From Gammaproteobacteria bacterium (lineage in GTDB: Bacteria; Pseudomonadota; Gammaproteobacteria; Halothiobacillales; Halothiobacillaceae): a DNA stretch of 17,029 nucleotides. The notes beneath the pieces are model-generated. The model worked only from the letters and a program-made list of their open reading frames with translations. It did no database searches and was not told the origin of the DNA. How positions within the stretch are numbered: position 1 is the stretch's first letter; each line of letters begins with the position of its first letter. The DNA is taken from positions 1 to 17,029 of the forward strand of contig JARJMX020000153.1 of the NCBI GenBank assembly GCA_029335925.2. The letters run 5' to 3'. This document shows, piece by piece, positions 1 to 17,029 of the stretch. Position numbers and translations under genes: made by a program.

Positions 1-9
1 CGCGGGGCC

Positions 10-22
10 GGCCCTTCGGGCC
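10..22. repeat. small hairpin GGCCC-TTC-GGGCC
   Basis: GGCCC at 10-14 and GGGCC at 18-22 form a 5-bp stem with a TTC loop at the left edge of the window. It probably belongs to the same repeat cluster as the elements at 45-141, or to the end of an upstream gene that is not visible. No T-run follows. Confidence 0.35.
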
Positions 23-44
23 AACCCTGGTCTGACCTGCTCCA

Positions 45-141
45 GCCGGGCCGCCCTGACGTGACCTCCTGTCACGACAGGGCTGAATGGGCCGTCCTTG
101 GCCCATTCACCCGGCTTCCTCAGGCCAGCCCAGGGCGGCCC
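45..141. repeat. nested inverted-repeat cluster able to form alternative stem-loops
   Basis: Several strong inverted repeats are packed here. GCCGGG at 45-50 pairs with CCCGGC at 110-115. Inside that lie two hairpins. The first is 53-83: GCCCTG, an A/A mismatch, then CGTGAC around a 5-base loop. The second is 84-109: TGAATGGGCC pairs perfectly with GGCCCATTCA around GTCCTT. Together these make a three-way junction. Separately, GGGCCGCCCTG at 48-58 is an exact 11-base complement of CAGGGCGGCCC at 131-141, which would break the junction and the first hairpin. No U-tract follows, so a simple intrinsic terminator is unlikely. It may be a REP/BIME-type repeat cluster or a structured 5' or 3' RNA. 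The pairing is directly visible; the function is unknown. Confidence 0.6.
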
Positions 142-155
142 CGAGGGGGGGATAG

Positions 156-189
156 CCCTCACCCCTGGCCCCTCTCCCAAAGGGAGAGG
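156..189 (+). repeat. dispersed intergenic repeat with CCTCTCCC/GGGAGAGG hairpin
   Basis: CCTCTCCC (171-178) and GGGAGAGG (182-189) form a perfect 8-bp stem with an AAA loop, preceded by CCCTCACCCCTGGC. This arrangement is recognised as a common dispersed intergenic repeat of many proteobacterial genomes. It lies 55 bp upstream of the start codon at 244 and has no T-run. Identification as a repeat family is from memory of the motif; copy number in this genome cannot be seen from one window. Confidence 0.5.
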
Positions 190-243
190 CGAAAATCCTG
201 TCCAGAAAACCTTCCTTATCACGCACTTGAGCCATAACCCACC

Positions 244-1044
244 ATGTCTACCCCCAACCACTTCGACATCGCCGCTCTCATCCGTCAGGCCGCGCTGGAG
301 GAAATCCTGCCTCGCTTTCGCAACGTCGAGCGCCACCTGAAGACCGACGGTTCCTGGCTGACCGAGGCGGACCTCGCTATGCAGGCCCGCGTGCAGCGCG
401 AGCTGGCCGCGCGCTTTCCGGACATCCCCTTCCTTGGCGAAGAGATGGGCGAGGACGAGCAGCAGCACCTGATGCAACACGCCGACAGTGGCCTGTGGAT
501 CCTCGACCCGCTCGATGGCACCAGCAACTTCGCCGCGGGCGTGCCGATCTTTGCCCCCTCGCTGGCCCTGATCTGCGGCGGCCGGGTGGTGCTCGGCGTG
601 GTGTTCGATGTGATGCGCGATGAATGCTTCAGCGCCGCCCAGGGGGAGGGGGCCTGGCTCAATGGCTCGCGACTACCACCGCCCACAACCGACATCCCGC
701 TCGGCAAGACCCTGGCCTGCATCGACTTCAAGCGCCTGTTACCTCAGCTCGCCACCCGCCTGGCGCTCCAGGCACCCTACAGCTCGCAGCGCTCGATCGG
801 CTCGGTCGCCCTCGACTGGTGCTGGGTCGCCGCGGGCCGTTTCCACATCTATCTGCACGGTCAACAGGGGCTGTGGGACTATGCCGCCGGACATCTGATC
901 CTGGAAGAAGCCGGGGGCTTCTCCTGCACGCTGGACGGTGAGAGGGTGTTCAACAACACCCTGGATAAGCGCTCCGCCATATGCGCCGGCGAGCGCCGAC
1001 TGTTCGCCGCCTGGACCGCCTGGCTCAAGGATCACAAGGGATAA
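244..1044 (+). CDS. inositol monophosphatase family protein
   Basis: This 266-residue protein belongs to the Mg2+/Li+-sensitive phosphatase superfamily (IMPase, FBPase, CysQ), which hydrolyses small phosphate monoesters in the cytoplasm. Visible metal-site motifs are GEE at residues 65-67, the DPLDGT signature at 88-93, and the C-terminal WDYAAG at 211-216. Length matches the family (about 260-270 residues). The chosen ATG gives the full N-terminal helix; no clear Shine-Dalgarno precedes it. It stands alone, between an upstream repeat cluster and a 218-bp gap before the next gene. Substrate cannot be told from sequence: inositol-1-phosphate, 3'-phosphoadenosine 5'-phosphate or fructose-1,6-bisphosphate are family options. 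I would not call it suhB without alignment. Family membership is certain, the exact reaction is not. Confidence 0.93.
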   Translation: MSTPNHFDIAALIRQAALEEILPRFRNVERHLKTDGSWLTEADLAMQARVQRELAARFPDIPFLGEEMGEDEQQHLMQHADSGLWILDPLDGTSNFAAGVPIFAPSLALICGGRVVLGVVFDVMRDECFSAAQGEGAWLNGSRLPPPTTDIPLGKTLACIDFKRLLPQLATRLALQAPYSSQRSIGSVALDWCWVAAGRFHIYLHGQQGLWDYAAGHLILEEAGGFSCTLDGERVFNNTLDKRSAICAGERRLFAAWTAWLKDHKG

Positions 1045-1047
1045 GCT

Positions 1048-1072
1048 GCTGTTGAAGAAGTCTTTCAACGGC
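1048..1072 (+). terminator. candidate hairpin terminator after the IMPase-family gene
   Basis: GTTGAA (1051-1056) and TTCAAC (1064-1069) form a stem that extends outward through a G-T pair to GC/GC, starting 4 bases after the stop codon. The following sequence (CTTGTTGAC) is only weakly T-rich, so termination strength is doubtful. Confidence 0.3.
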
Positions 1073-1234
1073 TTGTTGACACAAGCGATGGAGGGCTTGC
1101 ACGTGGCTTGGTCACACTAACTGAGTTGGAATTGCGGATATGCACTGCGCCGAGGCGAGTTGAAAAACGGCAGGCCGTCTTTTGTACAACCGGGTAACCC
1201 CGTCCCCTGGAAATGCCTCGGCAACCCCGCTCCT

Positions 1235-1243
1235 TGCTATAGT
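1235..1243 (+). promoter_or_regulatory. possible extended -10 promoter (TGCTATAGT) for the c-di-GMP operon
   Basis: TGC followed by TATAGT (1238-1243) resembles an extended -10 element, which can work without a good -35; none is visible at 17 bp. It lies 20 bases before the ATG at 1263, which would leave a short leader. Nothing else in the 218-bp gap 1045-1262 looks like a gene. Confidence 0.35.
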
Positions 1244-1262
1244 GCAACGGACCACCAGTTCA

Positions 1263-2249
1263 ATGACGAATGTCATGTGCCCACCGCCACGTCGGGACTT
1301 TCTGACCACAATCGCTGCTTCAGCCATCCTGCTGTTGGGATGCACGCCGCGTGCGTCACTGCGGGTCGCGGTTCACCCCTGGGTGGGCTATGAGACGATG
1401 TTTCTGGCCCGTCAACATGGCTGGCTTGATCCAGAGCGGGTTCGCCTGGTGGAAACCCCCTCCGCCAGCGATTCAGTGCATCTGCTCGGCCATGGGCTGG
1501 TGGAGGCTGCGGCCCTGACCCTGGATGAGGTGCTGCGCGCCTGTGCCCTGGGGCTGCGGCTCGCGGTGCCGCTGGTGTTCGATGTCTCCGTGGGGGCAGA
1601 CGGGGTGCTGGCTCGCCAGCCGCTGCGGCTGACGGAACTGGCTGGGGCGCGGATCGGTGTCGAGCAATCCGCCGTGGGGGCGATGATGCTCGCCGCCGTG
1701 CTTGAGCAGGCGGGGATGAGTGCGCAGGATGTGCAGCTCATCCATCTGCATCCGAACGAACACATCGCGGCCTGGCGTGCCGACAAGATCGATGTCCTGA
1801 TCACCTTCGAACCGATGCTGAGTGCGCTGGAAGTGGAAGGTGCAGTACGCATCTTCGACTCCCGCGCCATGCCCGACACCATCGTCGATGTGCTCGCCAT
1901 CCGTCAGCAGGCGCTTGCTTCCCATGGCCCGGCCATACGCCATCTGGTCATGGCCAGCCTGCGTGCCGTGCGGGATCTGACCATCAACCCTTTCGATGGG
2001 GCCTACCGCATCGGTGCCCGCCTGGGCCAGCGGCCTGAGACGGTGCTCGCCGGCCTGCGCGGTTTGCTGATCACCGATGTGGCGGACAACCGTCGCCTGC
2101 TGACGGGCGCATCCCCCTTGCTCGCAGCCCGGGCGAGGGAGGTGGCCAGCATCCTGCGCCAGGCGGGCATCCTACCCCTGCATCCGGACGCGCAGCCGTC
2201 GTCGCCTCTCGACCTACTCGTTACGGCCGACTACCTTCCCGACTTATGA
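1263..2249 (+). CDS. Tat-type lipoprotein, NMT1/TauA-like ABC substrate-binding protein
   Basis: This is a periplasmic solute-binding protein of the NMT1/THI5, TauA/SsuA type (328 residues from ATG 1263; ATG 1275 would give 324). The N-terminus carries twin arginines in RRDFL, then a hydrophobic stretch ending in the lipobox LLLGC. This predicts Tat export and a lipid-anchored cysteine at residue 27. Characteristic blocks follow: the WVGYETMFLARQHGWLD segment near the mature N-terminus, and DVLITFEPM at the hinge-proximal part. No permease or ATPase gene adjoins. Its stop overlaps the start of a GGDEF-EAL gene by ATGA. I infer that it senses a ligand for the following signalling proteins instead of serving an importer; a transporter elsewhere in the genome is the alternative. 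No good ribosome-binding site precedes either start, so the start is uncertain. Upstream ATG 1182 is unlikely because it would bury the signal peptide. Confidence 0.85.
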   Translation: MTNVMCPPPRRDFLTTIAASAILLLGCTPRASLRVAVHPWVGYETMFLARQHGWLDPERVRLVETPSASDSVHLLGHGLVEAAALTLDEVLRACALGLRLAVPLVFDVSVGADGVLARQPLRLTELAGARIGVEQSAVGAMMLAAVLEQAGMSAQDVQLIHLHPNEHIAAWRADKIDVLITFEPMLSALEVEGAVRIFDSRAMPDTIVDVLAIRQQALASHGPAIRHLVMASLRAVRDLTINPFDGAYRIGARLGQRPETVLAGLRGLLITDVADNRRLLTGASPLLAARAREVASILRQAGILPLHPDAQPSSPLDLLVTADYLPDL

Positions 2250-5128
2250 GCCGCTTCACTCTCCACCTGAAGACTGTTTTGCCCCTGCTGATGTTCGGCG
2301 TGTCGCTGTTCTTCAGCCTGTTGATGCTGCTGGTGGCGGATGTGCTGGAGCAGAAGCAGGTGATTGCCGAAGCCGAGGCCCAGCTGCGCGAGAAGGGGGC
2401 ACGGCTGACGCGGCTGGCCGAGCTGGATCTGGTCCGCGACCCGATGCGGCTGGAACGGGAAATCATGCTGTCCGCCGCCGAAAATGAACCGACGCACATT
2501 GCCCTGTTCGACCCACAGGGTACGGTGCGTTACGCCAGCCAGCTGGAGTGGCTGGGGCGGATGGCGAGAGAGGTCGCACCGCGACTCGATGCTGAGCGTT
2601 ATGCCAGCATCCGTGCAGGAATCGAACCCGTCCTTATGCGCGATGGATTGCGGCTGATGATCTGGGTGCCTTACGCCGACCCGCCGCGACCAGGGGAATT
2701 GAGCAGCAGTCGACGAGGGCTGATCTATATCGCACGCGATCTCAGCAACCGGATCGCCGTACGGCGGATGGAGATCTTGCGGAGCGAGTTGCCGTTGCTG
2801 GGGCTCGGCCTGCTGCTGGTGATGCTGTTCGCCTTCTGGCTGAATCGCGGCGTCACCACGCCGTTGCAAGCCCTGGACGAGGCGATGGGGCGGGTAATGA
2901 GCGGGGATCTCAATGTCCGCGTAGGCCGCCGTGGGGTCTTCGAACTGGCGGATTTGACAGCCTCCTTCGACCGCATGGTCGAGTGGCTGGCGCGTGAAAC
3001 GGATTCGCTGCGTCAGCAAAGAAACTTCAACCAGACCCTGCTGCAAGCTTTGCCTGCGCTGGTGGTCGTGGTGGATGGTAAGGGGGACATTGTGTTGGTC
3101 AACCTGCGGGCCGCCGAGTTACTCGGCGGCCCGCAGAAGGTGCTGCAGGGGCAGTCTTTTGCCCAGTTCGTGCCGGAGGATGAGCGGTCGATTCTACTAC
3201 CCGTGTTCCCACGACTTTGTAGGGGTGACCTGGGCACCGTTAAGGATATCGACACCTCTCTCATAGCAACCGATGGTTCGATCCGCAGGATCAACTGGTT
3301 GCTGCATCGAGTGGAAGTGCCCGACACCCCCATGTCCGCCCCTGATGCAGAAGGATGCGGGGCGCTCGTGTTGATGGTAGGTGAGGATGTCACCCTCCAA
3401 CGCCTGGCCGAGGCGCGCCTGCATCTGGCGCAGACGGTGTTCGATCATATCAGCGAAACCCTGATGATTACCGACCCCGAGCTGCGCATCGTTGCCGTCA
3501 ACCCCGCCTTCAGCCGTATTTTGGGCTACACAGAGGCGGAGGTGCTGGGCAAGACCCCGGCTTTGTTTCAATCCGGCCTGCATGATGCGGCCTTCTACCG
3601 CCAACTGTGGCACCACCTGCTCACTACCGGCCATTGGCAGGGCGAGATCTGGGATCGGCGCAAGGACGGCACGCTGATCCCACTCTGGCAGAGCATCTCG
3701 GTGGTGCGCGACACCCACGGTCGGCTGCTCCACTACGTAGCCAATGCCTCCGACCTCTCTGCGCTCAAGCAGGCTCAGGAACGCAGCGCCTGGCTCGCCG
3801 AGCATGACGCGCTGACTGGGCTGTTCAACCGCCTCGGCTTCCTCGCCCGCCTGCGCGAGGCTCTCAGCCAGGCGACCGAGAGTGGCTTGTATGGGGCGGT
3901 GGTGGTGTTCGATCTGGACCGTTTCAAAAGCATCAACGAGGGACGTGGCCCGCAGTGGGGCGATGCCCTACTGGCCGGAGTGGGGGAACGTCTGAGCAAG
4001 ACGGCTCCCAAAAGCGCCCACCTGGCCCGCCTGGCGGCGGATGAGTTTGCCGTCCTGCTGCCGCCTGAGCAGAACGACCCAACGACCGCCGCCGAAGTGG
4101 CCTTGCGCCAGGCCGAGGTGCTGCGCGCCGCTCTGCGGCTACCGCTGGAGGTGCGAGGGGAGTCCTTCCAGATCAGCGCTTCACTCGGTATTGCCCTCTA
4201 TCCCCCACAGGAACCGGTCTCTGCGGATCACTGCGAAGACGTCCTCAACCAGGCCACCCTCGCCATGCACACTGCCAAGACAGCGGGGGGTGAGCGGGTG
4301 GAATTCTTCGAGCGCGCCATGGGCGAGCGGGTGCGCAACGCCTTTGACCTGGAGCGAGCCCTGGCCCGCACCCTGGCGATGCCCAAGGAGGAGCAGCCGT
4401 TCCAGCTTTTTCTCCAGCCCCAGGTGGATAGTGTCGGCGAGCTGCGCGGTTTCGAGGCCCTGGTACGCTGGTACGATCCCGAGCAGGGCATGATCTCTCC
4501 CGCCCAATTCATCCCCATCGCCGAACAGAGCGGCCTGATCAGCGCACTGGGGGAGTGGGTGCTCGATCGCGCCTGCTACTACCTCGGCCAGCTGGGTCGC
4601 GCCGGGCGGACACTGAGCATGGCGGTGAACATCTCGCCGCGCCAGTTCGCCGCCGCCGATTTCGTCACCCGGGTCAGTGAGGCCCTCACCCGCCATGGCG
4701 CCGCCCCCGAGCAGCTGGTGCTGGAGGTTACCGAGGGGCTGCTGATCGACAATCCCGGTCACACCATCGCCACCATGCTAGATCTGGCTCGGCTAGGGGT
4801 GCGCTTCTCCATCGATGACTTTGGTACCGGCTATTCCTCGCTCGCCTACCTCAAGCGCCTGCCGATCCACGAGCTGAAGATCGACCGCAGTTTCATCCGT
4901 GACCTGCCGCAGGATAGCAATGATGCTGTGATCGTCGAAACCATCATCGCCATGGCCGCACACCTCAAGCTCGCGGTCGTGGCAGAGGGAGTGGAGACCG
5001 AGGCCCAGGCCGCCTTCCTACGCGAGCGTGGCCAGGTGATTGCCCAGGGCTTCCTCTACGGCCGGCCCGAGCCCGCGGAGGACTGGCTCGGACGGGTCTT
5101 TGCGGGCGGAGGAGGAGAGAAGGCATGA
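2246..5128 (+). CDS. membrane HAMP-PAS-PAS-GGDEF-EAL protein, predicted c-di-GMP phosphodiesterase
   Basis: The 960-residue inner-membrane protein is predicted to hydrolyse cyclic di-GMP to pGpG. Order: membrane helix about 11-31, periplasmic sensor about 32-180, helix about 182-199, HAMP about 200-252, PAS about 258-380, second PAS about 393-510 (with a DRRKDGT turn), GGDEF domain about 511-680, EAL domain about 700-950. The cyclase signature reads AADEF (597-601) instead of GGDEF and has no RxxD inhibitory site, so cyclase activity is probably lost; GTP binding for regulation remains possible. The EAL site looks complete: EAL 737-739, N795, E827/E830, DDFGTG 857-862, K878 and E914. Its ATG overlaps the stop of the binding-protein gene (ATGA) and no Shine-Dalgarno is visible, which suggests translational coupling. 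Its own stop overlaps the next gene the same way. Partner ligand and output are unknown. Confidence 0.93.
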   Translation: MSRFTLHLKTVLPLLMFGVSLFFSLLMLLVADVLEQKQVIAEAEAQLREKGARLTRLAELDLVRDPMRLEREIMLSAAENEPTHIALFDPQGTVRYASQLEWLGRMAREVAPRLDAERYASIRAGIEPVLMRDGLRLMIWVPYADPPRPGELSSSRRGLIYIARDLSNRIAVRRMEILRSELPLLGLGLLLVMLFAFWLNRGVTTPLQALDEAMGRVMSGDLNVRVGRRGVFELADLTASFDRMVEWLARETDSLRQQRNFNQTLLQALPALVVVVDGKGDIVLVNLRAAELLGGPQKVLQGQSFAQFVPEDERSILLPVFPRLCRGDLGTVKDIDTSLIATDGSIRRINWLLHRVEVPDTPMSAPDAEGCGALVLMVGEDVTLQRLAEARLHLAQTVFDHISETLMITDPELRIVAVNPAFSRILGYTEAEVLGKTPALFQSGLHDAAFYRQLWHHLLTTGHWQGEIWDRRKDGTLIPLWQSISVVRDTHGRLLHYVANASDLSALKQAQERSAWLAEHDALTGLFNRLGFLARLREALSQATESGLYGAVVVFDLDRFKSINEGRGPQWGDALLAGVGERLSKTAPKSAHLARLAADEFAVLLPPEQNDPTTAAEVALRQAEVLRAALRLPLEVRGESFQISASLGIALYPPQEPVSADHCEDVLNQATLAMHTAKTAGGERVEFFERAMGERVRNAFDLERALARTLAMPKEEQPFQLFLQPQVDSVGELRGFEALVRWYDPEQGMISPAQFIPIAEQSGLISALGEWVLDRACYYLGQLGRAGRTLSMAVNISPRQFAAADFVTRVSEALTRHGAAPEQLVLEVTEGLLIDNPGHTIATMLDLARLGVRFSIDDFGTGYSSLAYLKRLPIHELKIDRSFIRDLPQDSNDAVIVETIIAMAAHLKLAVVAEGVETEAQAAFLRERGQVIAQGFLYGRPEPAEDWLGRVFAGGGGEKA
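5108..5123 (+). promoter_or_regulatory. purine-rich ribosome-binding site for the PhnD-GGDEF gene
   Basis: A long GA-rich tract (GAGGAGGAGAGAAGG) lies within the last codons of the GGDEF-EAL gene, directly before ATG 5125. This gives the third gene a strong site of its own as well as the ATGA overlap. It supports the chosen start. Confidence 0.6.
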
Positions 5129-7134
5129 CCGCGGCTGTTCTGCATCGCCTCCTTATCGTCCTGCTGTTCGTCGGCCTCGTCCTCCCGGCGCGGGGAGGGC
5201 TCGCCCTGGAGCAGGCCGGGGCCGTTGCCGGTTTGGGCGGAGATGGGGTTTCCATCGGCATTCTTGCCACGCGCCCGCAAGCCCAGGCGCAGTGGGCGCC
5301 ACTCGGGGAGGAGTTGCGTGCACACCTTGGCCAGCCGGTACGTATCGTCGCCCTCGATTCCGAGAGCATGGAGCTGGCCATCCGTCGACGCGAAGTCGAC
5401 TTCATCCTCACCAACCCCGCGAACTATCTGCGGCTAGCCGGCCCATTCCACCTGTCCGCGCCGCTCTGTTCGTTAGTGGTGAGCGAAGAGGGGGTACCGC
5501 TCAATGTCTTTGGCGGGGTTATCTTCACCCGGGCCGACAGCCCGGTAAGGCAGTTGAGCGACCTGGACGGGCGCAAGATCGCGGTGAGCACCTTGAACTC
5601 CTTAGGCGGCTATCAGATGCAGGCCTTCGAGCTGATGTCCGCGGGTCTGAAACTGCCCGATACCCGCCATCTGGTGCTCACTGGCATGCCGTATGATCGG
5701 GTGGTCGAGGCCGTGCTGGAAGGTAAGGCCGAGGTTGGCTTCGTCCGCACCGGGGTGCTCGAAGCCATGGTGCGTGAAGGGCGGCTGGCGCCCGAGACCA
5801 TGCGCGTGCTCCACCGCCAGAACCTGCCGCACTTTCCCTACGCCAGCTCCACCCGTCTCTATCCCGAGTGGGTCTTCGTCGGCATGCCACAGGTCGATAC
5901 GGACCTCGCCCGGCAGGTCACCGCCGCCCTGCTGGCCCTGCCGCATGATGGCCCTACCGCGCGCAAGATTGGCATCTGGGGCTTCACCATCCCGATGGAC
6001 TATGAGCCGGTGCGTGAGATGATGCGTACCCTGCGGGTCCCCCCCTTCGAACAGGCCTCGGACTGCACCCTCGCTGACGTGTGGCAGCGCTACCGCATGG
6101 CCCTGATCGCCGCGCTGGTGCTTGCGGCCCTCAACCTGGGCCTGCTGGTGGTGGTATGGCGCAAGCAGCGGCGCCTGATGGAGCTGAATGCCACCATCCG
6201 CGCCCAGGGGCGCGAGATCGAGAGTCAGAGCACCATGGCGCGCCAGCTGCTCGGGGCGCTGAACGAGGGTGTTTACGGTGTGGGGCCCGATGGGCGCTGC
6301 ACCTTCATCAATCCGGCGGCCCTGCGCCTGCTGGGATATGCATCCGAGGCCGAGGTGCTGGGCAAGGACAACCACGCTCTGTTCCATCGGTGGAGGGCAG
6401 ATGGCACGTTTTATCCGGAGGAGCAGTGCCCGATCCACCAGACCCTGCAGGATGGCCAGGCGAGGCAGGCGGAGGATGAGTGGTTCTGGCGCAAGGACGG
6501 CACAGGCCTGCCGGTCTCCCTGCGGGTCTCGCCGGTAGGGGGGGATGACGGCATCCGCGGGGCTGTGGTCGCCTTCCACGACATCACTGAGCGCAAGCGA
6601 CTGCTCGAGACCCTGCGCCACCAGGCCACCCACGACGAACTCACCGGTCTGGTCAACCGCCGTCACCTGTTCGAGCTCGCCGAGCGCGAGCATGCGCGGA
6701 TCCGGCGTGGCCAAGCAAGCCCCGCTGCGATCATCATGGTCGACGTGGATCATTTCAAGCGCATCAACGACACCTACGGCCATCTCGCCGGAGATGCGAT
6801 CCTGCGTCACCTCGGCCAGTTCTTATGCGCCAAGTTGCGCACCACAGACATTGCTGCCCGCTATGGTGGGGAGGAGTTCATACTCATGCTGCCCAGTACT
6901 GATCTGGACGCCGCTCTGCGCCTGGCTGCGCGCCTGCGCGAGGAGGCGGCAGCCAGCACGGTGTACAGCGACGGTCAGCCATTGCACTTCACCCTGAGTC
7001 TGGGATTGACCGCCCTCACCGCGCAGGATCCGTCGCTGGATGTGGCTATCGCCCGCGCCGACGAAGCCCTCTACCGGGCCAAGATGGGTGGGCGTAACCG
7101 TATCGAGGTAGATCCCCAATACGGCGGGGTGTAA
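5125..7134 (+). CDS. PhnD-like periplasmic binding domain fused to PAS-GGDEF diguanylate cyclase
   Basis: This 669-residue inner-membrane protein is predicted to make c-di-GMP from two GTP. It has a signal/anchor helix at about 7-27, then a PhnD-type (phosphate/phosphonate-binding-like) periplasmic domain at about 40-315. Blocks typical of that domain are GILATRP, FILTNPANYL and GRKIAVSTLNSLGGYQMQ. A membrane helix at about 325-345 is followed by a short coiled linker, a PAS domain at about 370-490 and a GGDEF domain at about 495-665. The active motif is intact (GGEEF 581-585), with VDVDHFKRINDTYGH upstream and an allosteric RTTD I-site at 572-575. An active, product-inhibited cyclase is expected. 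It is the third gene of the ATGA-overlapped unit. Neither ligand nor output is visible; phosphonate is not implied, since PhnD-like folds bind diverse molecules. Confidence 0.94.
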   Translation: MTAAVLHRLLIVLLFVGLVLPARGGLALEQAGAVAGLGGDGVSIGILATRPQAQAQWAPLGEELRAHLGQPVRIVALDSESMELAIRRREVDFILTNPANYLRLAGPFHLSAPLCSLVVSEEGVPLNVFGGVIFTRADSPVRQLSDLDGRKIAVSTLNSLGGYQMQAFELMSAGLKLPDTRHLVLTGMPYDRVVEAVLEGKAEVGFVRTGVLEAMVREGRLAPETMRVLHRQNLPHFPYASSTRLYPEWVFVGMPQVDTDLARQVTAALLALPHDGPTARKIGIWGFTIPMDYEPVREMMRTLRVPPFEQASDCTLADVWQRYRMALIAALVLAALNLGLLVVVWRKQRRLMELNATIRAQGREIESQSTMARQLLGALNEGVYGVGPDGRCTFINPAALRLLGYASEAEVLGKDNHALFHRWRADGTFYPEEQCPIHQTLQDGQARQAEDEWFWRKDGTGLPVSLRVSPVGGDDGIRGAVVAFHDITERKRLLETLRHQATHDELTGLVNRRHLFELAEREHARIRRGQASPAAIIMVDVDHFKRINDTYGHLAGDAILRHLGQFLCAKLRTTDIAARYGGEEFILMLPSTDLDAALRLAARLREEAAASTVYSDGQPLHFTLSLGLTALTAQDPSLDVAIARADEALYRAKMGGRNRIEVDPQYGGV

Positions 7135-7158
7135 CACCAACGCCTCAGCCTGAAATAG

Positions 7159-7182
7159 GGATGAGCCAAGCACGGCTCATCC
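7159..7182 (+). terminator. strong hairpin downstream of the c-di-GMP operon
   Basis: GGATGAGCC (7159-7167) pairs perfectly with GGCTCATCC (7174-7182) around a 6-base loop, 25 bp after the operon's last stop. No T-run follows, so it could be a weak terminator, an mRNA-stabilising stem or a repeat element. Call is by position and stem strength. Confidence 0.4.
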
Positions 7183-7284
7183 GGGAAGCAAACATGGCCC
7201 ACGTGAGAGGCTCGCGGAACCCGTCGCGGGGATGCATCACAACCGGATGCGTTGCAGAAGGGAAGGGCGATCTTAAGCGATCAG

Positions 7285-7620
7285 TCAGGGTCGGATCTCT
7301 TCCACTTGGTAATACCAGACTCGGATGCCCTCCGGCCAGCCATGCAAGGGCAGGCCGGCCTTATGCTTTAGCTGCCTGAGAAATTCGGTTGGCTCAGGCA
7401 GCTGCGCCCATACCGACGGCAGGAAGGTCGCGCGCCGACCCTGCGCCTCAATGATCAGATCGTCTACCCCAGGGTGCAGTTGCTCCAGCAGTGCCTGCTA
7501 AGACGGTGCCGCGACCGGCTCCGGCAGGCTTTCGACCTGCACCGGCAAGGCGCAACCGTGCTCAAGGCCGTGGGCGATGGAAGCGTGCGTCAGCTCGATC
7601 AGGGGATGCCGCGTTGTCAT
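7285..7620 (-). pseudogene. amrA remnant (AMMECR1 domain), internally deleted with in-frame stop
   Basis: One frame on the minus strand starts at ATG 7620 and matches both ends of an AMMECR1 protein (AmmeMemoRadiSam system protein A). The first 40 codons include LIELTHASIAHGLEHG and LPVQVESLPEP. Codon 41 is TAG (7498-7500). After it, the same frame continues for 70 codons with the C-terminal family blocks GVDDLIIEAQGRRATFLPS, VWAQLPEPTEFL and LKHKAGLPL. The central roughly 70-80 residues, which hold the usual LRGCIGS block, are missing. Internal deletion plus a stop means no intact protein. ATG overlaps the stop of the amrB remnant (ATGA), the normal arrangement of neighbouring amr genes. Family assignment is by recognised motifs and not by search. 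Confidence 0.78.
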
Positions 7621-7710
7621 GCCGCCGCCTCGTACAGGGCCCAGGCACCGTAGCTCACCACTTGGTGGCGCGGGCCCGCGGTGTCACCGGAGTTGCGCAG
7701 ATCCAGCCAC
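7617..7710 (-). pseudogene. amrB remnant (MEMO family), C-terminal end only
   Basis: The minus-strand frame ending in TGA at 7617-7619 encodes LDLRNSGDTAGPRHQVVSY and then GAWALYEAAA. This matches the C-terminus of MEMO-like proteins (AmmeMemoRadiSam system protein B), where NSGDTAG followed by a VVGYGA-like block is typical. Homology appears to stop near 7710, where a plus-strand coding fragment begins. Only about 30 residues remain of a protein normally over 250 residues, so the gene is broken. It directly precedes and overlaps the amrA remnant. Confidence 0.7.
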
Positions 7711-7844
7711 TTTCCAAGGAGGACTGGCCCTTGGTCGCTCGCGTAAAGCAGTTTCCCCTGGTGGCCAACGGCCCGCTGGTCCATGTCCTGTACGAGGACT
7801 TCAAGGCCGATTGGCTCAAGCTCGCGCGAGCACGGTTACCTTGA
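7707..7844 (+). pseudogene. orphan C-terminal coding fragment of unknown family
   Basis: From about 7707 the frame ending in TGA 7842-7844 reads as natural protein: SKEDWPLVARVKQFPL, VANGPLVHVLYEDF, KADWLKLARARLP. It has no plausible start of its own; upstream the same frame runs antisense to the amrB/amrA remnants and reads as an arginine- and proline-rich shadow. It therefore looks like the tail of a gene whose front was removed at the junction that also truncated amrB. I do not recognise the family. A chance open frame is possible. Confidence 0.4.
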
Positions 7845-7999
7845 TGCATGCTTCACCCGCCATGAGATCCTCGTTGATTCCAAGGCTGGCACAACGGACG
7901 TTGACCTGCGCATGGATACGGGGGAGCCCTATGTCTTCCTCTCGCGGGATTCGACGTACAATGCCCTCACCCTGCCACAATCTCGTGATGGAGCCCCGC
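7845..7999. other. intergenic region before opgD, no gene recognised
   Basis: Together with the remnants, this makes 7135-7999 an 865-bp stretch without an intact gene. TTGACC at 7901-7906 lacks a partner -10 at normal spacing. TACAAT at 7957-7962 could be a -10 for opgD but has no good -35. Short open frames exist on both strands; I could not support any as real. Confidence 0.4.
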
Positions 8000-9583
8000 A
8001 TGTCCGTGGATACTTCCCGCCGCAGCTTCCTTGCCGCCATGAGCAGCCTGCCGCTTTGGGGTTTGTTCGGCGCCAAGGCGCGCGCCGCTCTAGATGCCGC
8101 CGGTCTCAAGTTCGGCGAGGCCAAGCCGTTCGACTTCGACATGCTGATCAAGATGGCCAGGGACATGGCCGACCAGCCTTATAAGGAGCCCGCCCGCCCA
8201 AACCCCGAGGCGGTCAAGAAGATCGACTACGACGAGCAGGGCAAGATCAAATTCAAGTATGACTACGCCCTGTGGAAGGACGGCCCCTCGGTCTATCCCA
8301 TCACCTTCCGCCCGGTCGGCTACTATTTCCAGAAGACCGTGCGCATGTTCGCGGTGGACAACGGCGAGGCGCGCGAGATCATTTACCAGCCGGACTACTT
8401 CAGCTTCGGCCCGCAGAGCCCGATGAACGACATCCGCCCGGGCGAATCTGCGATCGCTGGTTTTTGGGTGCAGGAGTCGCGCCGCATCGGTGACTGGACC
8501 AAGCAGGAGCCTTGGGCCACCTTTCAGGGGGCATCGTACTTCCGCGCCGTAGGTGAGCTTGGCCAGGTCGGCATGTCTGCGCGCGGCATCGCCCTCAACG
8601 TCGGCGCTGCCGAGCCGGAGGAATTCCCGGATTTCCGCTCCTTCTGGTTCGAGCCCGCCGCACGCGAGGGTGATCCCTTGATCGTCTACGCCCTGCTCGA
8701 TGGTCCCTCCATCACTGGGGCTTACCGCTTTGCCCTGCATCGGACCAGTGGCGTGGTGATGGACATCGAGAATCACCTCTTCCTGCGCAAGGATGTGGAG
8801 CGCCTCGGCATCGCCCCGCTCACCTCCATGTTCTGGTATGCCGAATACCCGGCCGCCCACTCCCACGACTGGCGGCCGGAGGTGCACGATTCCGACACCC
8901 TGGTGATGTGGAATGGCGCGGGGGAGCACCTGGTCCGCCCGCTCAATAACCCCACCCGCATCATGTTCTCCTCGTTCATGGACGAGAACCCGCGTGGCTT
9001 TGGCCTGGCCCAGCGCGATCGCAACTATGAGCATTACCTTGACGGCGTGAACTACGATCGGCGCCCCACCACCTGGGTCGAGCCGCTTGGTGAGTGGGGA
9101 AAGGGCCGGGTGCAGCTGGTCGAGATTCCCACGGATGATGAGGTTTACGACAACATTGGCGTGTTCTGGGTGCCGGAAAAGCCCGCCCGCGCTGGCACCA
9201 CCTTCAGCTTCCGCTATCGCCTGCACTGGCTGGCCGATACACCCTACTTCCCGAAGAAGGATCTTGCCCGCGCCGTCGCCCTGCGTATGGGCCGCGGGGG
9301 TGAATTCGGCAAGGCACGCCCCGCCAATGCCAAAAAGATCGTCATCGAGTGGGATGGCGAGATCCTCAAGTCCATCCCCTGGGGCGTGCGCCCGACCGTG
9401 GTGGTGTCCGCCTCGCGCGGGCAGATCTCGCTCACCCGTAGCGAGGCCATCTGGTACACCCCGCGCTGGCGCTCGGAGTTTGACATCACCGTGGATGGCA
9501 GCGAGCCGGTCGAGTTGCGCTGCCACCTGGAGCTCGACGGCAAGCCGATCACTGAGACCTGGCTGTACCAGTACCATCCGTAA
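8000..9583 (+). CDS. opgD: glucans biosynthesis protein D (OpgD/MdoG family)
   Basis: A periplasmic protein of 527 residues acting on osmoregulated periplasmic glucans (beta-1,2-linked backbone). OpgG/OpgD proteins are required for correct glucan structure, and OpgD-type members have been described as beta-1,2-glucanases. The N-terminus has a Tat signal: SRRSFL at residues 6-11, a hydrophobic stretch, and cleavage predicted after AKARA (about residue 29). Tat export distinguishes OpgD from Sec-exported OpgG. Family blocks include FKYDYALWKDG, MFWYAEYPAAHSHDWRPEVH, HDSDTL, ENPRGFGLAQRDRNYEHY and VEIPTDDEVYDNI, and a C-terminal Ig-like domain about 400-527. GGAG at 7990-7993 sits 6 bases before ATG 8000 and decides the start. 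The in-frame ATG at 7988 would overlap that site. No opgH glucosyltransferase gene adjoins. A terminator follows. Confidence 0.95.
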   Translation: MSVDTSRRSFLAAMSSLPLWGLFGAKARAALDAAGLKFGEAKPFDFDMLIKMARDMADQPYKEPARPNPEAVKKIDYDEQGKIKFKYDYALWKDGPSVYPITFRPVGYYFQKTVRMFAVDNGEAREIIYQPDYFSFGPQSPMNDIRPGESAIAGFWVQESRRIGDWTKQEPWATFQGASYFRAVGELGQVGMSARGIALNVGAAEPEEFPDFRSFWFEPAAREGDPLIVYALLDGPSITGAYRFALHRTSGVVMDIENHLFLRKDVERLGIAPLTSMFWYAEYPAAHSHDWRPEVHDSDTLVMWNGAGEHLVRPLNNPTRIMFSSFMDENPRGFGLAQRDRNYEHYLDGVNYDRRPTTWVEPLGEWGKGRVQLVEIPTDDEVYDNIGVFWVPEKPARAGTTFSFRYRLHWLADTPYFPKKDLARAVALRMGRGGEFGKARPANAKKIVIEWDGEILKSIPWGVRPTVVVSASRGQISLTRSEAIWYTPRWRSEFDITVDGSEPVELRCHLELDGKPITETWLYQYHP

Positions 9584-9606
9584 AGCGGACGCCGCTTGAC
9601 CTCATC

Positions 9607-9626
9607 GGCCCGGGGGCGGGCCTTTT
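9607..9626 (+). terminator. rho-independent terminator of opgD
   Basis: GGCCCG (9607-9612) and CGGGCC (9617-9622) form a 6-bp GC stem with a GGGG loop, followed by TTTT, 23 bases after the opgD stop codon. Confidence 0.75.
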
Positions 9627-9755
9627 ACATTCTGGCTGGAGGAGCGGCGCCCCCGCCGCGACAGCGCAAGCGTTTCAAGCGGCTGAAGCGGACCGCCGCC
9701 ACGGCTTTCCATGGCTCGCATCGCGCGGGCCGTTTTCATTGATGGGAATGTCCAT

Positions 9756-11027
9756 ATGAGCCCCCCTTACCGCGCCCGCTACCACCACTTTGCCCTTGCG
9801 GTGGAGATCCTCGAGGAGATTGCAAAAGGTCGTATTCCGGCCGACCAGGTCATCCACCACCATTTCCGCCAGCGCCCGCAGATGGGGGTGCGGGATCGCG
9901 GTGTGGTGGCGGAGAGCGTGTACGGTGTACTGCGTAGCCGTCGCAGCCTGGCGTGGCGGATGAAGGTGAACGAAAGCCAGTGGAACTATCTGGTCGCAGG
10001 CTTCTTGCTTGACCAGGGCTGGGCGGAGCGCGAGTTCGTCATTAAGTGGCTTGGCGGGGGCGGCGCGGCCGCTGCCCTCGACCGCCTAAAGTGCAACCTT
10101 GCTACGGCCCCGCTCGCGGTGCGCGCCAACCTGCCGGACGCACTGGCCGAGCGCCTGCTGCCTGTCTATGGCGAACAGGGCCTGCTGGCCCTGATGCAGG
10201 CGATGAACCAGCCTGCGCCGGTCGACCTCCGTGTCAACCTGCTCAAGACCGACCGCGCGACCCTCCAGAACATGCTGGACGAACTCGGCTTGCCGACCGA
10301 GCCTACGCCCTACGCCCCGCATGGCCTGCGCCGACATGATCGCCGCCCGTTATTCAACCTGCCCGCCTTCAAGGACGGACTGTTCGAGCTGCAGGATGAG
10401 GCCAGTCAGCTCATCGGCCACCTGCTCGACCCCAAGCCCGGCGAGCGCGTGCTCGACCTGTGTGCCGGGGCGGGGGGCAAGACCCTCCAGCTCGGCGCCC
10501 TAATGCAGAGCAAAGGTCAGTTGTGGGCCACGGACATCTCGGCCCACCGGCTGGACAAGCTGACCCCGCGCATGCGCCGCGCCGGGCTGTCCAACGTGCG
10601 CCCGCTGCCGATTGCCGGCATGAGCGATACCCATCTTAAGCGCGCCAAGGGCACGTTCGACCGCATCCTGATCGACGCCCCCTGTTCTGGCACCGGCACC
10701 TGGCGGCGCAATCCGGACCTCAAATGGCGCCCGCTTGACCTTGATGCCCTCAACCGCACCCAGTTCGAATTGCTGGAAGGCAGCATGCGCCTGCTCAAGC
10801 CGGGCGGGAGGATCGTCTACGCCACCTGCTCCATCCTGCCGGAGGAGAACGAGCGTATTGTCGAGCAATGCCTCGTCCGGCATCCGGAATTCAGCCTGCT
10901 TCCAGCGGCAGAGATCCTTGCGACACAAGGGATCGACGTACCCGTCCAGGGCGCCTGGCTTCGCCTCGATCCGGCCCGGCACGGCACGGACGGGTTCTTT
11001 GCCGCCGTGCTGGAAAGGCCTGTATAA
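9756..11027 (+). CDS. RsmB/Nop2-family RNA (cytosine-5) methyltransferase
   Basis: SAM-dependent enzyme transferring methyl to C5 of cytosine in RNA, 423 residues from ATG 9756. An N-terminal NusB-like region (about 1-140) is followed by the catalytic Rossmann domain. Motifs: SAM-binding LDLCAGAGGKT (about 233-243), DAPCSGTGTWRRNPDLKW with the motif IV cysteine near 310, and YATCSILPEENE with the nucleophile cysteine near 358. Both Cys residues of the m5C mechanism are present. Length is close to RsmB, which modifies C967 of 16S rRNA, but the N-terminal part is divergent, so I call the family and not the position. ATG 9711 would add 15 residues and is less likely. The gene is alone; nothing clear lies in 9627-9755. 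Confidence 0.9.
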   Translation: MSPPYRARYHHFALAVEILEEIAKGRIPADQVIHHHFRQRPQMGVRDRGVVAESVYGVLRSRRSLAWRMKVNESQWNYLVAGFLLDQGWAEREFVIKWLGGGGAAAALDRLKCNLATAPLAVRANLPDALAERLLPVYGEQGLLALMQAMNQPAPVDLRVNLLKTDRATLQNMLDELGLPTEPTPYAPHGLRRHDRRPLFNLPAFKDGLFELQDEASQLIGHLLDPKPGERVLDLCAGAGGKTLQLGALMQSKGQLWATDISAHRLDKLTPRMRRAGLSNVRPLPIAGMSDTHLKRAKGTFDRILIDAPCSGTGTWRRNPDLKWRPLDLDALNRTQFELLEGSMRLLKPGGRIVYATCSILPEENERIVEQCLVRHPEFSLLPAAEILATQGIDVPVQGAWLRLDPARHGTDGFFAAVLERPV

Positions 11028-11028
11028 T
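10999..11028 (+). promoter_or_regulatory. sigma70-type promoter for the PAS/Roadblock gene pair
   Basis: TTGCCG (10999-11004) and a consensus TATAAT (11023-11028) are 18 bp apart. The -10 overlaps the stop codon of the methyltransferase gene. Transcription would start near 11035, within a small hairpin (GCCTTA 11033-11038, TAAGGC 11042-11047). This is the best promoter match in the window. Confidence 0.5.
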
Positions 11029-11070
11029 CGTTGCCTTATGGTAAGGCGAATAAAAAGGAATTGGAGACTT

Positions 11071-11169
11071 ATGTCGCCTTCCCCTATAGTCAGGACAGGG
11101 TTTGTTGACGGCCCAAGGCGGTCATGCCTAGCCACCATGGGCATGGCCACACCAGCCTTGCCCAAGTGA
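11071..11169 (+). CDS. possible 32-residue leader ORF
   Basis: An ATG at 11071 preceded by AAGGAATTGGAG (GGAG 11063-11066, 4-base spacing) opens a 32-codon frame ending TGA 11167-11169. It sits between a good promoter and the PAS gene start at 11211. The predicted peptide (MSPSPIVRTGFVDG..., ending ATPALPK) has no recognisable domain and no run of regulatory codons. It could be a translated leader, a small protein, or chance. Confidence 0.3.
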   Translation: MSPSPIVRTGFVDGPRRSCLATMGMATPALPK

Positions 11170-11210
11170 ACCTTTATCGCCAATGCTTGGCAACTTCTTG
11201 GAGAAGGGAC

Positions 11211-11651
11211 ATGGAGCTCAATCTGACGACCAATGAACTCGAACAGACCTGGACGAGCGTCGAGCGCATGTTTGCGGTCATTGTCTTTACCCCGCAGGGC
11301 GAAGTGATGGCCGCCAACGGCATCTTCTTGCAGGCTATGGGCTATACGCTGGCCGAGATCGAGGGCAAGCATCACCGTATGTTTTGCTCCAGCGAATATG
11401 TCCAATCACCGGCCTATGCCGAATTCTGGACTGCCCTCGCCCGGGGGGAAAGCGTGCACGGCACTTTCCGCCGTCTGCGCAAGGACGGCAGCGAGATTTT
11501 TCTCTATGCCGAGTATGCCCCGCTGCTTGATGCAGAAGGCCGGGTGGTCAAGGTCATCAAGATCGCGCAGAACATCTCGCGCGTGGCAGAGAATCTCATC
11601 CGTCAGCTTGGCATGAGTGAAAAACTCATTGGCCGGTTGATGACCCTTTGA
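11211..11651 (+). CDS. single PAS-domain protein
   Basis: A 146-residue soluble protein made almost entirely of one PAS domain (about 15-125), of the type found in front of chemoreceptor and aerotaxis-like proteins. Blocks are VIVFTPQGEVMAANGIFLQ, MGYTLAEIEGKHHRMFC, YVQSPAYAEFW, RRLRKDGSEIFLYAEYAPL and VKVIKIAQNIS. There is no output domain; only a short C-terminal helix follows. It probably binds a small cofactor or works by protein contacts. GGAGAAGGG at 11200-11208 precedes ATG 11211 and decides the start over the ATG at 11124. The next gene, a Roadblock/LC7 protein, starts 19 bp after its stop, so the two are likely co-transcribed and may work together. Function is inferred only to the level of sensing or scaffold. 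Confidence 0.85.
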   Translation: MELNLTTNELEQTWTSVERMFAVIVFTPQGEVMAANGIFLQAMGYTLAEIEGKHHRMFCSSEYVQSPAYAEFWTALARGESVHGTFRRLRKDGSEIFLYAEYAPLLDAEGRVVKVIKIAQNISRVAENLIRQLGMSEKLIGRLMTL

Positions 11652-11670
11652 AGCTGCAAGGAGTCGATCC

Positions 11671-12033
11671 ATGCGTATCGAAATGCTCACTTCCATTCTC
11701 TCCGAGCTCAACGGCTCGTCTGCTGATATCGAGGCCTCCGCCATTGTCTCCAGCGACGGTCTGATGATGGCTTCCTTGCTGCCTGCGGGCATGGACGAGG
11801 ACCGGGTCGGGGCCATGAGCGCGGCGCTGCTCTCTCTTGGCGACCGCACCGCGAAGGAGCTGGCGCGCGGCGCGCTGGAGCAGGTGCTGATCAAGGGCGA
11901 TCGCGGCTATATCCTCATGACCCACGCTGGCGAGGAGGCGGTATTGACCGTGCTCGCCAAGCCGCAGGCCAAGCTCGGGCTGATCTTCCTCGATGTCAAG
12001 CGCGCCGCCGAGGCCATCACCCGCATCCTCTGA
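11671..12033 (+). CDS. Roadblock/LC7 (MglB-like) domain protein
   Basis: A 120-residue single-domain protein of the Roadblock/LC7 superfamily. Its features are the N-terminal helix MLTSILSELN, the strand AIVSSDGLMMAS, LPAGMDEDRVGAMSAALLSL, and the C-terminal strand LTVLAKPQAKLGLIFLDV. Bacterial members dimerise and act as regulators of small Ras-like GTPases, as MglB does for MglA in polarity and motility, though many are orphans. AAGGAG precedes ATG 11671. No GTPase gene is in the window; the only partner visible is the PAS gene immediately upstream. Its stop faces the xthA stop across 19 bp. Family is confident; the partner and process are unknown. Confidence 0.88.
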   Translation: MRIEMLTSILSELNGSSADIEASAIVSSDGLMMASLLPAGMDEDRVGAMSAALLSLGDRTAKELARGALEQVLIKGDRGYILMTHAGEEAVLTVLAKPQAKLGLIFLDVKRAAEAITRIL

Positions 12034-12052
12034 CTCGCTTGCGCGGCAGGGA

Positions 12053-12847
12053 TCAGGACGTCTCGGTCGCCAGGCTGGGCAGGTCGTAGTCGATAATCAG
12101 CGGGGCATGGTCCGAGAAGCGGGTGGTCTTCCAGATCGAAGCCGCCAGCACCTTGGGGGCAAGGTCTGGGGTGATGAGCTGGTAGTCGATGCGCCAGCCT
12201 ACGTTCTTGGCCCAGGCCTGGCCGCGGTTGGACCACCAGGTGTACTGCTCGGGTTCCTGGTTCACCACCCGGAAGGCGTCCACCCATCCCTCCTTGTCAC
12301 AGCGCTCATCCAGCCAGGCGCGTTCGTGCGGCAGAAAGCCGGAGTTCTTCTGGTTGCCGCGCCAGTTCTTCAGGTCGATCGGCTTGTGGGCGATGTTCCA
12401 GTCTCCGCACAGGATCACGCTGCGACCGGAGGCCTTGAGCTCGCGCATCTTCGCCGGGAAGGACTTAAGGAAGCGGTCCTTGCTGGCCTGGCGCTCTGGC
12501 CCGGCTGAGCCGGAGGGCAGATAGAGGCTCACCACGCTCAGCGGGCCAAAGCGGGCTTCCAGGTAGCGGCCCTCGCGGTCGAACTCCTCCACCCCGAAGC
12601 CTGCGATCACATCATCCGGCTCACGCCGGGCGTACAGCCCCACCCCGCTGTAGCCCTTGCGCTCGGCGGGTTCGTAGTAGCAGTGGTAGCCCGCGGGCCA
12701 GAACACCTCCGCGCCGAGCTGGTCGACCTGGGCCTTGAGCTCCTGCAAGCAGACGATGTCGGCCTGCTGTGAGGGCAGCCAGTCGAAGAAGCCCTTGCTC
12801 GCGGCGGAGCGGATGCCGTTGACGTTGAGGGTGATGACGCGAAGCAT
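12053..12847 (-). CDS. xthA: exodeoxyribonuclease III (AP endonuclease)
   Basis: A 264-residue Mg2+-dependent nuclease of base-excision repair that cuts 5' of abasic sites and trims 3' ends of duplex DNA. All EEP-fold catalytic motifs are visible: LNVNGIRSA with N10, CLQELKAQ with E36, Y109, CGDWNIAH with D149 and N151, WRIDYQL with D221, and SDHAPL with D246/H247. Length is typical of ExoIII (about 255-270). It starts at ATG 12847 and follows purH on the same strand after a 130-bp gap that holds an inverted repeat. It is convergent with the Roadblock gene, with no clear terminator in the 19 bp between. Confidence 0.96.
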   Translation of the reverse strand: MLRVITLNVNGIRSAASKGFFDWLPSQQADIVCLQELKAQVDQLGAEVFWPAGYHCYYEPAERKGYSGVGLYARREPDDVIAGFGVEEFDREGRYLEARFGPLSVVSLYLPSGSAGPERQASKDRFLKSFPAKMRELKASGRSVILCGDWNIAHKPIDLKNWRGNQKNSGFLPHERAWLDERCDKEGWVDAFRVVNQEPEQYTWWSNRGQAWAKNVGWRIDYQLITPDLAPKVLAASIWKTTRFSDHAPLIIDYDLPSLATETS

Positions 12848-12874
12848 GGGTCGTGGCGTTTGGGTGAAAGCACG

Positions 12875-12935
12875 GTAGGAGCGCTACCCTCGGCGCAACC
12901 TGGCCGGAAGATCGGCCCGAGGGCGGTCCTCCTAC
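12875..12935. repeat. 61-bp imperfect inverted repeat, REP-like, between purH and xthA
   Basis: The left arm GTAGGAGC....CCCTCGG and the reverse complement of the right arm GTAGGAGG....CCCTCGG match at both blocks with the same 4-base offset; the centre also pairs (TGGCC/GGCC region). Ends beginning GTAG with a GC-rich palindrome recall REP sequences of gammaproteobacteria. No T-run on either side, so it is not a canonical terminator, though a stable stem could protect purH mRNA or reduce read-through into xthA. Confidence 0.6.
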
Positions 12936-12977
12936 GAACTGCTGCGGGTGGGGGCGGCGTGTCGCCGCGATGGCTGC

Positions 12978-14585: not shown

Positions 14586-14619
14586 GGGAGTACTCGCGTA
14601 GACAGGCAAAATCGGCGCG

Positions 14620-14649
14620 ATTGTAACCCGTCGGTCACATGGGCCTGAA
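14620..14649 (-). promoter_or_regulatory. possible purH promoter
   Basis: On the minus strand TTCAGG (14649-14644) and TACAAT (14625-14620) are 18 bp apart, upstream of the purH ATG at 14585 and overlapping the 3' end of the dehydrogenase gene. The -35 matches poorly, so purH may instead be read through from the upstream gene. Confidence 0.3.
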
Positions 14650-15495: not shown

Positions 15496-15571
15496 GGCAA
15501 TCCCCCCTTCATTCGTTATGCTTGTCGGCATTGTACCGATCGCGGCATCAGGCCGCCCCCAAGGGAAGCTG

Positions 15572-17014: not shown

Positions 17015-17029
17015 TGGCAGCGTCCTTGA
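17014..17029 (+). CDS. possible start of a downstream gene overlapping dgt
   Basis: The ATG at 17014-17016 shares its A with the dgt stop codon (TGATG) and reads M-A-A-S-L before the window ends. Overlaps of this kind mark co-translated genes elsewhere in the window, but only five codons are visible, so this is a weak call. Confidence 0.2.

Follow-up and report, generated by a model that had tools for sequence, protein, structure and literature searches.

A branch of importer-type binding lipoproteins encoded beside membrane sensors, and its proposed role as a sensory co-receptor

NMT1 proteins are usually importer subunits, and a gene for one that stands in an operon-like unit with two signalling enzymes raises the question of what such a protein does there. 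The unit lies on contig JARJMX020000153.1 of a gammaproteobacterium of the Halothiobacillaceae (assembly GCA_029335925.2), of which positions 1 to 17,029 were analysed and are called the window here; all coordinates are on the forward strand unless stated otherwise. Gene 1 (1263..2249) encodes a 328-residue lipoprotein of the SsuA/TauA (NMT1) fold. Gene 2 (2246..5128) encodes a predicted cyclic diguanosine monophosphate (c-di-GMP) phosphodiesterase with a Cache-like periplasmic domain, HAMP, PAS, a degenerate GGDEF and EAL, and gene 3 (5125..7134) a predicted diguanylate cyclase with a PhnD-like periplasmic domain, a membrane helix, PAS and an intact GGDEF. An earlier note, made from these letters, had described a three-gene unit overlapped by ATGA where gene 1 stops and gene 2 starts (2246..2249) and where gene 2 stops and gene 3 starts (5125..5128), with no permease or ATPase gene adjoining. 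This layout stands, and Pfam bears out the domain calls for the three proteins. We propose that gene 1 is probably a dedicated sensory solute-binding lipoprotein, or co-receptor, which would dock on the periplasmic domains of membrane partners and so change c-di-GMP activity.

A lipoprotein branch that precedes sensor genes

Gene 1 carries a T-x-D-E signature (TLDE, residues 86-89; 1518..1529), in which T, D and E are invariant among 62 aligned relatives. Among 177 distinct proteins, 126 have T-x-D-E at this position, 24 have TN-x-D and 27 have something else. None of the 126 is transporter-linked, meaning that a permease is encoded among the next two same-strand genes or at most 60 bp upstream, or an ATPase at most 150 bp downstream; 71 precede a PhnD-like sensor, 48 a Cache-like sensor, two another signalling protein, and five none of these. 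A sensor gene of either type thus lies directly downstream of 119 of the 126, within the gap of at most 100 bp that these partner counts require. The TN-x-D proteins are transporter-linked in 22 cases and without either kind of neighbour in two, and the remaining 27 divide into five transporter-linked proteins, seven that precede Cache-like and five that precede other signalling proteins, and ten with none. Domain labels come from profiles of the window's own domains and of Escherichia coli K-12 TauA, TauB, TauC and TorS, so that 'HK' (histidine kinase), 'PAS' and 'GGDEF' are approximate terms.

The samples behind these counts differ in how freely they were drawn. The named loci are the best 80 of at least 400 confirmed relatives from a scan of species genomes, and because the fetch patterns included TLDE their T-x-D-E count (76 of 79 with a sensor) is biased. 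The two other samples leave out these 80 loci and sequences identical to them, and a sensor follows in 21 of 21 T-x-D-E members from related genomes and in 22 of 26 from a class-wide sample of 276 genomes, which was searched with alignments of sensor-linked proteins and in which only about 8-10 candidates were scored per genome. The earlier note's reading would have been refuted had the closest relatives always been neighbours of transporter genes, and they are not. In 96 related genomes there are 54 matches to gene 1, itself included, and with neighbours mapped for all, each of the 24 matches at E<1e-40 (the window's own among them) precedes a PhnD-like or Cache-like protein; of the other 30, 20 adjoin a permease or ATPase, six precede a signalling protein (three of them Cache-like) and four do neither. 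The class-wide draw holds 33 places in 29 genomes below 1e-80, none transporter-linked, the next gene being PhnD-like or Cache-like in 31 (one of them 168 bp off) and neither in two. The family of Ferriphaselus has matches in 39 of 158 genomes, and a sensor follows in 35 of the 37 loci examined (41 places, of which three were already in the set and 38 were fetched, one, L275, being dropped for its length of 3038 bases).

Phylogeny separates the two kinds of protein. In a tree of 131 proteins, 100 fall in one group (Shimodaira-Hasegawa-like approximate likelihood ratio support, 99) made up of 64 PhnD-paired, 33 Cache-paired and three unpaired proteins, which carries T-x-D-E with few exceptions; every transporter-linked row lies outside it. 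The pairs recur with three kinds of output, GGDEF, GGDEF-EAL and HK, and the records that hold them are labelled as Gamma-, Beta- or Deltaproteobacteria, as members of these, or as Magnetococcales. A four-base NTGA overlap in frame with the partner gene is present in 76 of 119 branch members (54 ATGA, 17 GTGA and five TTGA), more than chance would give. The conserved unit is the pair of a lipoprotein and one sensor, and not the order of three genes.

Gene 1 scores above the Pfam cut-offs for NMT1_2 (PF13379, 48.6 bits; cut-off 24.7) and NMT1 (PF09084, 42.4; cut-off 20.5), and its best fold matches are SsuA and TauA. It has a lipobox, LLGC (residues 24-27; 1332..1343), whose Cys27 is kept in at least 90% of the 62 aligned relatives, and just ahead of it a twin-arginine-like motif, RRDFL (residues 10-14; 1290-1304); of 119 branch members, 85 match a simple lipobox pattern and 61 show an RRxFL-like motif. 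The urea-carboxylase-associated and SsuA/TauA importer binding proteins (TIGR03427, TIGR01728 and TIGR01729) share its fold and differ from it in having mostly M or G where gene 1, which is without a transporter, has D88. Most transporter-linked relatives read TN[MG]D at the signature, and T86, an acid at 89, S109, G111, D113 and D209 are common to most branch members and to most of these relatives. Gene 1 stays far below the cut-offs of the three importer models (73 of 163.5 bits for TIGR01728, 61 of 333.9 for TIGR03427 and 39 of 304 for TIGR01729). The relatives include two urea-type importer proteins, L186 and L190, with TIGR03427 scores of 549 and 571 bits. In Pfam and NCBIfam, gene 1 matches only NMT1, SsuA, taurine and urea-type families and no polyamine (PotD-like) family. 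The urea-type relatives prompt a weak guess that the ligand could be a small cation or amide; a literature search on the ligand gave nothing usable.

A few other arrangements were seen. Three very distant binding proteins of 298-302 residues (L191, L194 and L195), with TQYE for T-x-D-E, lie directly before a GGDEF-EAL protein in genomes of the window's family, and L195 has no NCBIfam match at E 1e-10. One Deltaproteobacterium-labelled locus (L118) has a run of three NMT1-like genes plus a kinase gene ahead of a Cache-HK-REC protein, and the partner protein at L204 has two tandem PhnD-like domains ahead of PAS-GGDEF-EAL. Two long frames that were considered as lipoprotein-sensor fusions (L212 and L218) were set aside, as profiles match only a binding-protein domain, at the C-terminal end.

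The most familiar role for gene 1 would be to feed an importer encoded elsewhere, with the gene order reflecting co-regulation of uptake and signalling. Transporter-linked relatives do exist, and contig C148 of the same genome encodes a TauB-like ABC (ATP-binding cassette) ATPase (7.6e-61) beside a two-domain permease. However, none of the 126 branch members is linked to a transporter, and the lipoprotein co-diverges with sensor domains (see below). The genome is 92% complete and has nine permease-domain matches, all on other contigs, among which none is of the TauC type (the best scores 25.8 bits, against 287-331 for true ones); it contains no other NMT1_2 match. Neighbourhoods and the want of a TauC-type permease thus argue against an importer subunit and leave the C148 ATPase and permease as a possible route, and an importer elsewhere appears quite improbable to us.

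Co-divergence with the periplasmic domains and a probable coupling

An action of the lipoprotein on its sensor's periplasmic domain predicts that its divergence follows that domain more closely than the output domain, and pairwise distances bear this out. The correlation (rho) between lipoprotein and periplasmic-domain distances is 0.77 for PhnD/GGDEF pairs (n=48), 0.68 for PhnD/HK (n=21), 0.73 for Cache/GGDEF (n=58) and 0.77 for Cache/HK (n=14), against 0.41, -0.17, 0.55 and -0.09, in the same order, for the output domains; with EAL as the output (n=53), it is 0.74 for Cache and 0.49 for EAL (interval of the difference, 0.09 to 0.42). Zero lies outside the bootstrap interval of this difference in three of the four sets. 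The sets contain every partnered row, including a few without T-x-D-E; the resampled loci are not independent of one another, and the domains differ in rate and length. Linkage alone does not explain the difference, because input and output lie in one gene. On a lipoprotein tree of 109 rows, the input type changes four times and the output type 31 times (mean of 30 shuffles, 48), and two other lipoprotein trees give five input-type changes. That the lipoprotein follows its partner's periplasmic domain more than its output domain supports, at the level of sequence, a coupling in the periplasm.

Two readings without contact can be set against these data. Adjacency could be a neutral relic of operon inheritance, as linked genes share history; but the same pair recurs with GGDEF, GGDEF-EAL and HK outputs, with 31 output changes to four input changes, and is spread over Gamma-, Beta- and Deltaproteobacteria-labelled records and Magnetococcales, and we regard a relic as very improbable indeed. 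Alternatively, the lipoprotein could be a scavenger or titrator that never docks and only withholds a ligand from the PhnD-like and Cache-like domains, which would bind it themselves. Both types of partner domain derive from ligand-binding folds, as this would require, yet a competitor that does not touch its partner need not co-diverge more with the periplasmic than with the output domain, and the PhnD domain sequence differs where PtxB has S-T-S. We consider titration unlikely.

The branch is importer-like and widespread, stands beside signalling enzymes and appears to have co-evolved with their sensing parts, and so is probably a detachable receptor part through which the cell would learn when to switch its lifestyle. 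Gene 1 would bind a periplasmic small molecule and, depending on that ligand, would dock on the periplasmic domain or domains of its partners, shifting c-di-GMP activity. Docking on a partner's periplasmic domain seems to us quite likely, and its dependence on a ligand likely. At most loci one lipoprotein gene is followed by one sensor gene. Of the sensory system that the earlier note had suggested, the coupling in the periplasm is supported by the co-divergence, and the three-gene order on which it was drawn proved rare. Ligand loading or competition, as imagined there, and ligand-dependent docking, which has a precedent in NspS-MbaA, could each account for such a coupling.

Several observations weigh against the sensory co-receptor, and with them belong the rarity of the triple and the small basis of the GGDEF contrast, both described in the next section. 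The rho-difference interval for Cache/GGDEF includes zero (-0.03 to 0.36), and co-divergence as such also follows from linkage. At five branch members a sensor is missing from the first 100 bp. Three of these are methylotroph loci (L069, L073 and L087) with an ABC ATPase gene 189-893 bp upstream; of the other two, one has a PhnD domain 168 bp away and one an unrecognised next gene. An ATPase gene also lies 126 and 461 bp upstream at L168 and L199, respectively, which brings the loci with an ABC ATPase 126-893 bp upstream to five; there is no permease match among the neighbours listed for the T-x-D-E members. The genome of one methylotroph locus (G254) encodes elsewhere a PhnD-HK protein that scores as the partnered kind (E 8.6e-125) with no lipoprotein gene beside it. 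Among 97 PhnD-domain places listed at E<=1e-40 in the class sample, a lipoprotein adjoins in nine, counting that of the window, which is one gene away.

Unpaired sensors are thus common, and the PhnD-like and Cache-like folds do not require a neighbouring lipoprotein gene. By comparison of coordinates, the best-scoring PhnD places (E<1e-100) have a lipoprotein match beside them in eight of 11 cases. A tree of 95 PhnD domains sorts the 21 that are labelled as alone into two groups, of 19 and two, and six Cache-type sensors (L246-L251) are without a recognised lipoprotein. The lipoprotein needs, or at least has, a sensor; the converse does not hold.

The three-gene locus and a possible exchange of partners

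The earlier note held that its reading would fail if the three genes were rarely neighbours in related genomes, and in this respect the data go partly against it. The exact triple occurs in only two of 156 distinct partnered loci (distinct sequences, with no gap limit), the window and Ferriphaselus sp. R-1 (L081), and the list of Ferriphaselus-family loci adds no further one. Both overlaps are present in both triples.

In the window, the two enzymes appear to have opposed activities. For gene 2, Pfam finds HAMP, two PAS stretches, GGDEF and EAL, and no model matches its periplasmic domain (about residues 34-182; 2345..2791). A structure model of residues 1-250 (mean predicted local distance difference test score, 92.3) has a long helix followed by a PAS/Cache-like alpha-beta fold there; with this N-terminal helix and core, residues 34-182 fit a Cache-type extracellular sensor domain. 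The GGDEF signature is degenerate (LAADEF, residues 596-601; 4031..4048), and the EAL domain (4388..5068; PF00563, 227.5 bits) has EALVR and DDFGTGYSSL motifs; having no GGDEF/GGEEF cyclase signature, gene 2 is predicted to be a c-di-GMP phosphodiesterase. Gene 3 matches Phosphonate-bd (PF12974, 131 bits), PAS and GGDEF, and its membrane helix was read from the sequence and not predicted by a tool. Its output domain has RTTD, a possible inhibitory-site RxxD, followed by the active-site GGEEF (residues 581-585; the two span 6838..6879), from which we predict a diguanylate cyclase.

The S-T-S segment anchors the ligand in PhnD/PtxB binders of phosphonate or phosphite. In the PhnD-like domain of gene 3 (5248..6096), the segment aligned to it in PtxB reads NSLGGYQ (5596-5616), and SLGGYQ in the consensus of 46 domains; this replacement disfavours the domain as a phosphonate sensor.

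The second gene of L081 has LTGDAF and the third GGEEF. With a degenerate GGDEF and an EAL in the second gene and GGEEF in the third, cyclase and phosphodiesterase seem to be divided over two proteins, and we suggest that in both triples the EAL protein would be the phosphodiesterase and the PhnD protein the cyclase. Cache-GGDEF-EAL proteins without a GGDEF signature are found in both triples and in three of 53 other loci, a contrast that rests on two loci and was noticed post hoc. As a general rule, a third-gene cyclase does not go with a degenerate GGDEF in the second gene (two of 12 with a downstream cyclase, three of 43 without; Fisher p 0.30); the association is confined to the two loci with a PhnD-GGDEF third gene, and in nine of the other ten the third gene begins like a response-regulator receiver, as judged by the first 60 residues. 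The Ferriphaselus family has a recurrent operon of this kind, with a lipoprotein, a Cache-PAS-GGDEF-EAL protein and a short GGDEF protein with a receiver-like N-terminus (L280, L290, L292, L294, L295, L298, L299, L301 and L302), and a PAS-GGDEF-EAL gene lies upstream in seven of the nine.

In the window, then, the lipoprotein gene overlaps a row of two enzymes, gene 2 predicted to degrade and gene 3 to make c-di-GMP, and one lipoprotein ahead of opposed enzymes could set the balance between synthesis and breakdown. That gene 1 controls both is arguable, and we lean slightly against it.

Trees of the partners suggest how such a locus could arise. Seven Cache-paired loci (the window, L081, L088, L106, L116, L122 and L146) form one clade in a Cache-domain tree of 78 loci (100/100) and group together again when the lipoproteins of those 78 are placed in a tree (99/94), and in the full lipoprotein tree they are the only Cache-paired rows on an 85-row side that holds all PhnD-paired rows (support 99). 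The EAL-domain tree does not show the group (five of the seven have an EAL; the smallest side holding them has eight rows, support 46), and the PhnD domains of the window and L081 are each other's nearest by path, with no well-supported branch joining them. The simplest reading of the seven-locus clade would be a single exchange of partner type, and the window and L081, both within it, may be survivors of an intermediate state with both sensors. We speculate, tentatively and as something rather improbable, that a shared, interchangeable co-receptor docks on both PhnD-like and Cache-like folds and drives cyclase and phosphodiesterase by push and pull, the locus being a surviving intermediate in a swap of partners by which a lipoprotein lineage passed from PhnD-like to Cache-like sensors.

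The lipoprotein could instead serve one partner here, either gene 3, with gene 2 an inserted passenger that has its own sensor, or gene 2, with gene 3 a remnant of a former pairing. Gene 3 may be the partner because the tree places gene 1's own branch on the PhnD side: in the 131-protein tree, gene 1 is at the base of the side with all PhnD-paired rows (support 87), and the full tree places it inside the 85-row side and outside an 84-row side (support 59). Elsewhere a locus has a single sensor, and the seven Cache-paired loci on the PhnD side look like a single partner change. However, gene 2's Cache domain sits in the clade corresponding to these lipoproteins, gene 3's PhnD domain scores as the partnered kind (E 2.6e-118), and both overlaps are kept in both triples. 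Service to a single partner is a possibility that we take seriously and think somewhat improbable.

Around the triple, the upstream neighbour is an inositol-phosphatase-family gene, and 442 bp downstream of gene 3 follows an open frame with an MdoG domain; these 442 bases (7135-7577) have no assigned gene, and the MdoG domain begins only at residue 185 of its frame. The start of gene 1 at 1263, as given in the earlier note, is plausible and unproven, an in-frame ATG at 1275 and a TTG at 1182 being alternatives. At the start of the contig, a TwoAYGGAY RNA matches in Rfam on the reverse strand (12-154; 46.7 bits, cut-off 43). Farther downstream, between an rsmB-like and an exonuclease III gene, a short PAS-only protein (11124-11651) is followed by a Roadblock/LC7 protein (11671-12033).

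Known systems and significance

NspS is of the PotD type. In the Vibrio cholerae pair NspS-MbaA, the ligand state of a periplasmic binding protein sets the activity of a membrane c-di-GMP enzyme (PMC8967002), a precedent for ligand-dependent docking; a Sinorhizobium meliloti pair is reportedly named in PMC9993111. Gene 1 resembles NspS in being a free-standing binding protein of the periplasm whose gene adjoins that of a membrane GGDEF-EAL protein. The differences are that NspS binds polyamines, whereas gene 1 has the SsuA/TauA fold and a T-x-D-E signature, and that the window has two separate enzymes, one combining EAL with a degenerate GGDEF and the other having a GGDEF and no EAL.

PhnD-like proteins have precedents of their own; ThsS, for example, is the name of a sensor of the TtrS kind. 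AioX, ArrX and ArxX are PhnD-related binding proteins used in signalling and encoded with AioS-type kinases, as outlined in PMC5908839, and our PhnD-domain profile matches ArrX and AioX chains. In AioX systems a free PhnD-like protein binds the ligand, with a kinase and a response regulator, whereas in gene 3 of the window a PhnD-like domain forms part of the membrane cyclase itself, and the free component is a different, NMT1-type lipoprotein. TtrS has a PhnD-like periplasmic domain fused on a signalling protein (PMC5408782), and its model scores 142.7 bits on residues 43-378 of gene 3, below the cut-off of 750. Direct binding of tetrathionate or thiosulfate is proposed for sensors of this type, and the parts of PMC5408782 devoted to them mention no companion lipoprotein.

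Stimulation of receptors by binding proteins is widespread according to a survey in which 13 of the 22 families in its strains are known to do so (PMC9602780), and NMT1 proteins may therefore already count among the known families. In open-licence full texts, judged by listings and with most subscription papers outside, no text appeared to describe the pairing of such sensors with an NMT1-type protein. The principle is thus known. What did not turn up in the literature searched is a sensory branch of NMT1 type, its use with two unrelated sensor folds, or a triple whose activities are split.

The inputs of most c-di-GMP enzymes are unidentified in V. cholerae and in most studied species, according to PMC8967002. 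The branch can be recognised by a short motif and a neighbour, which would turn many orphan sensors across the Proteobacteria into testable two-part receptors, and one ligand, once found, would be a lead for many c-di-GMP enzymes and histidine kinases. Co-divergence with two unrelated folds, together with volatile outputs, offers a natural case of a binding protein turning from transport to signalling, and the same branch one for studying the exchange of partners. On the rather improbable reading of a shared co-receptor in the window, one ligand would set c-di-GMP there by push and pull.

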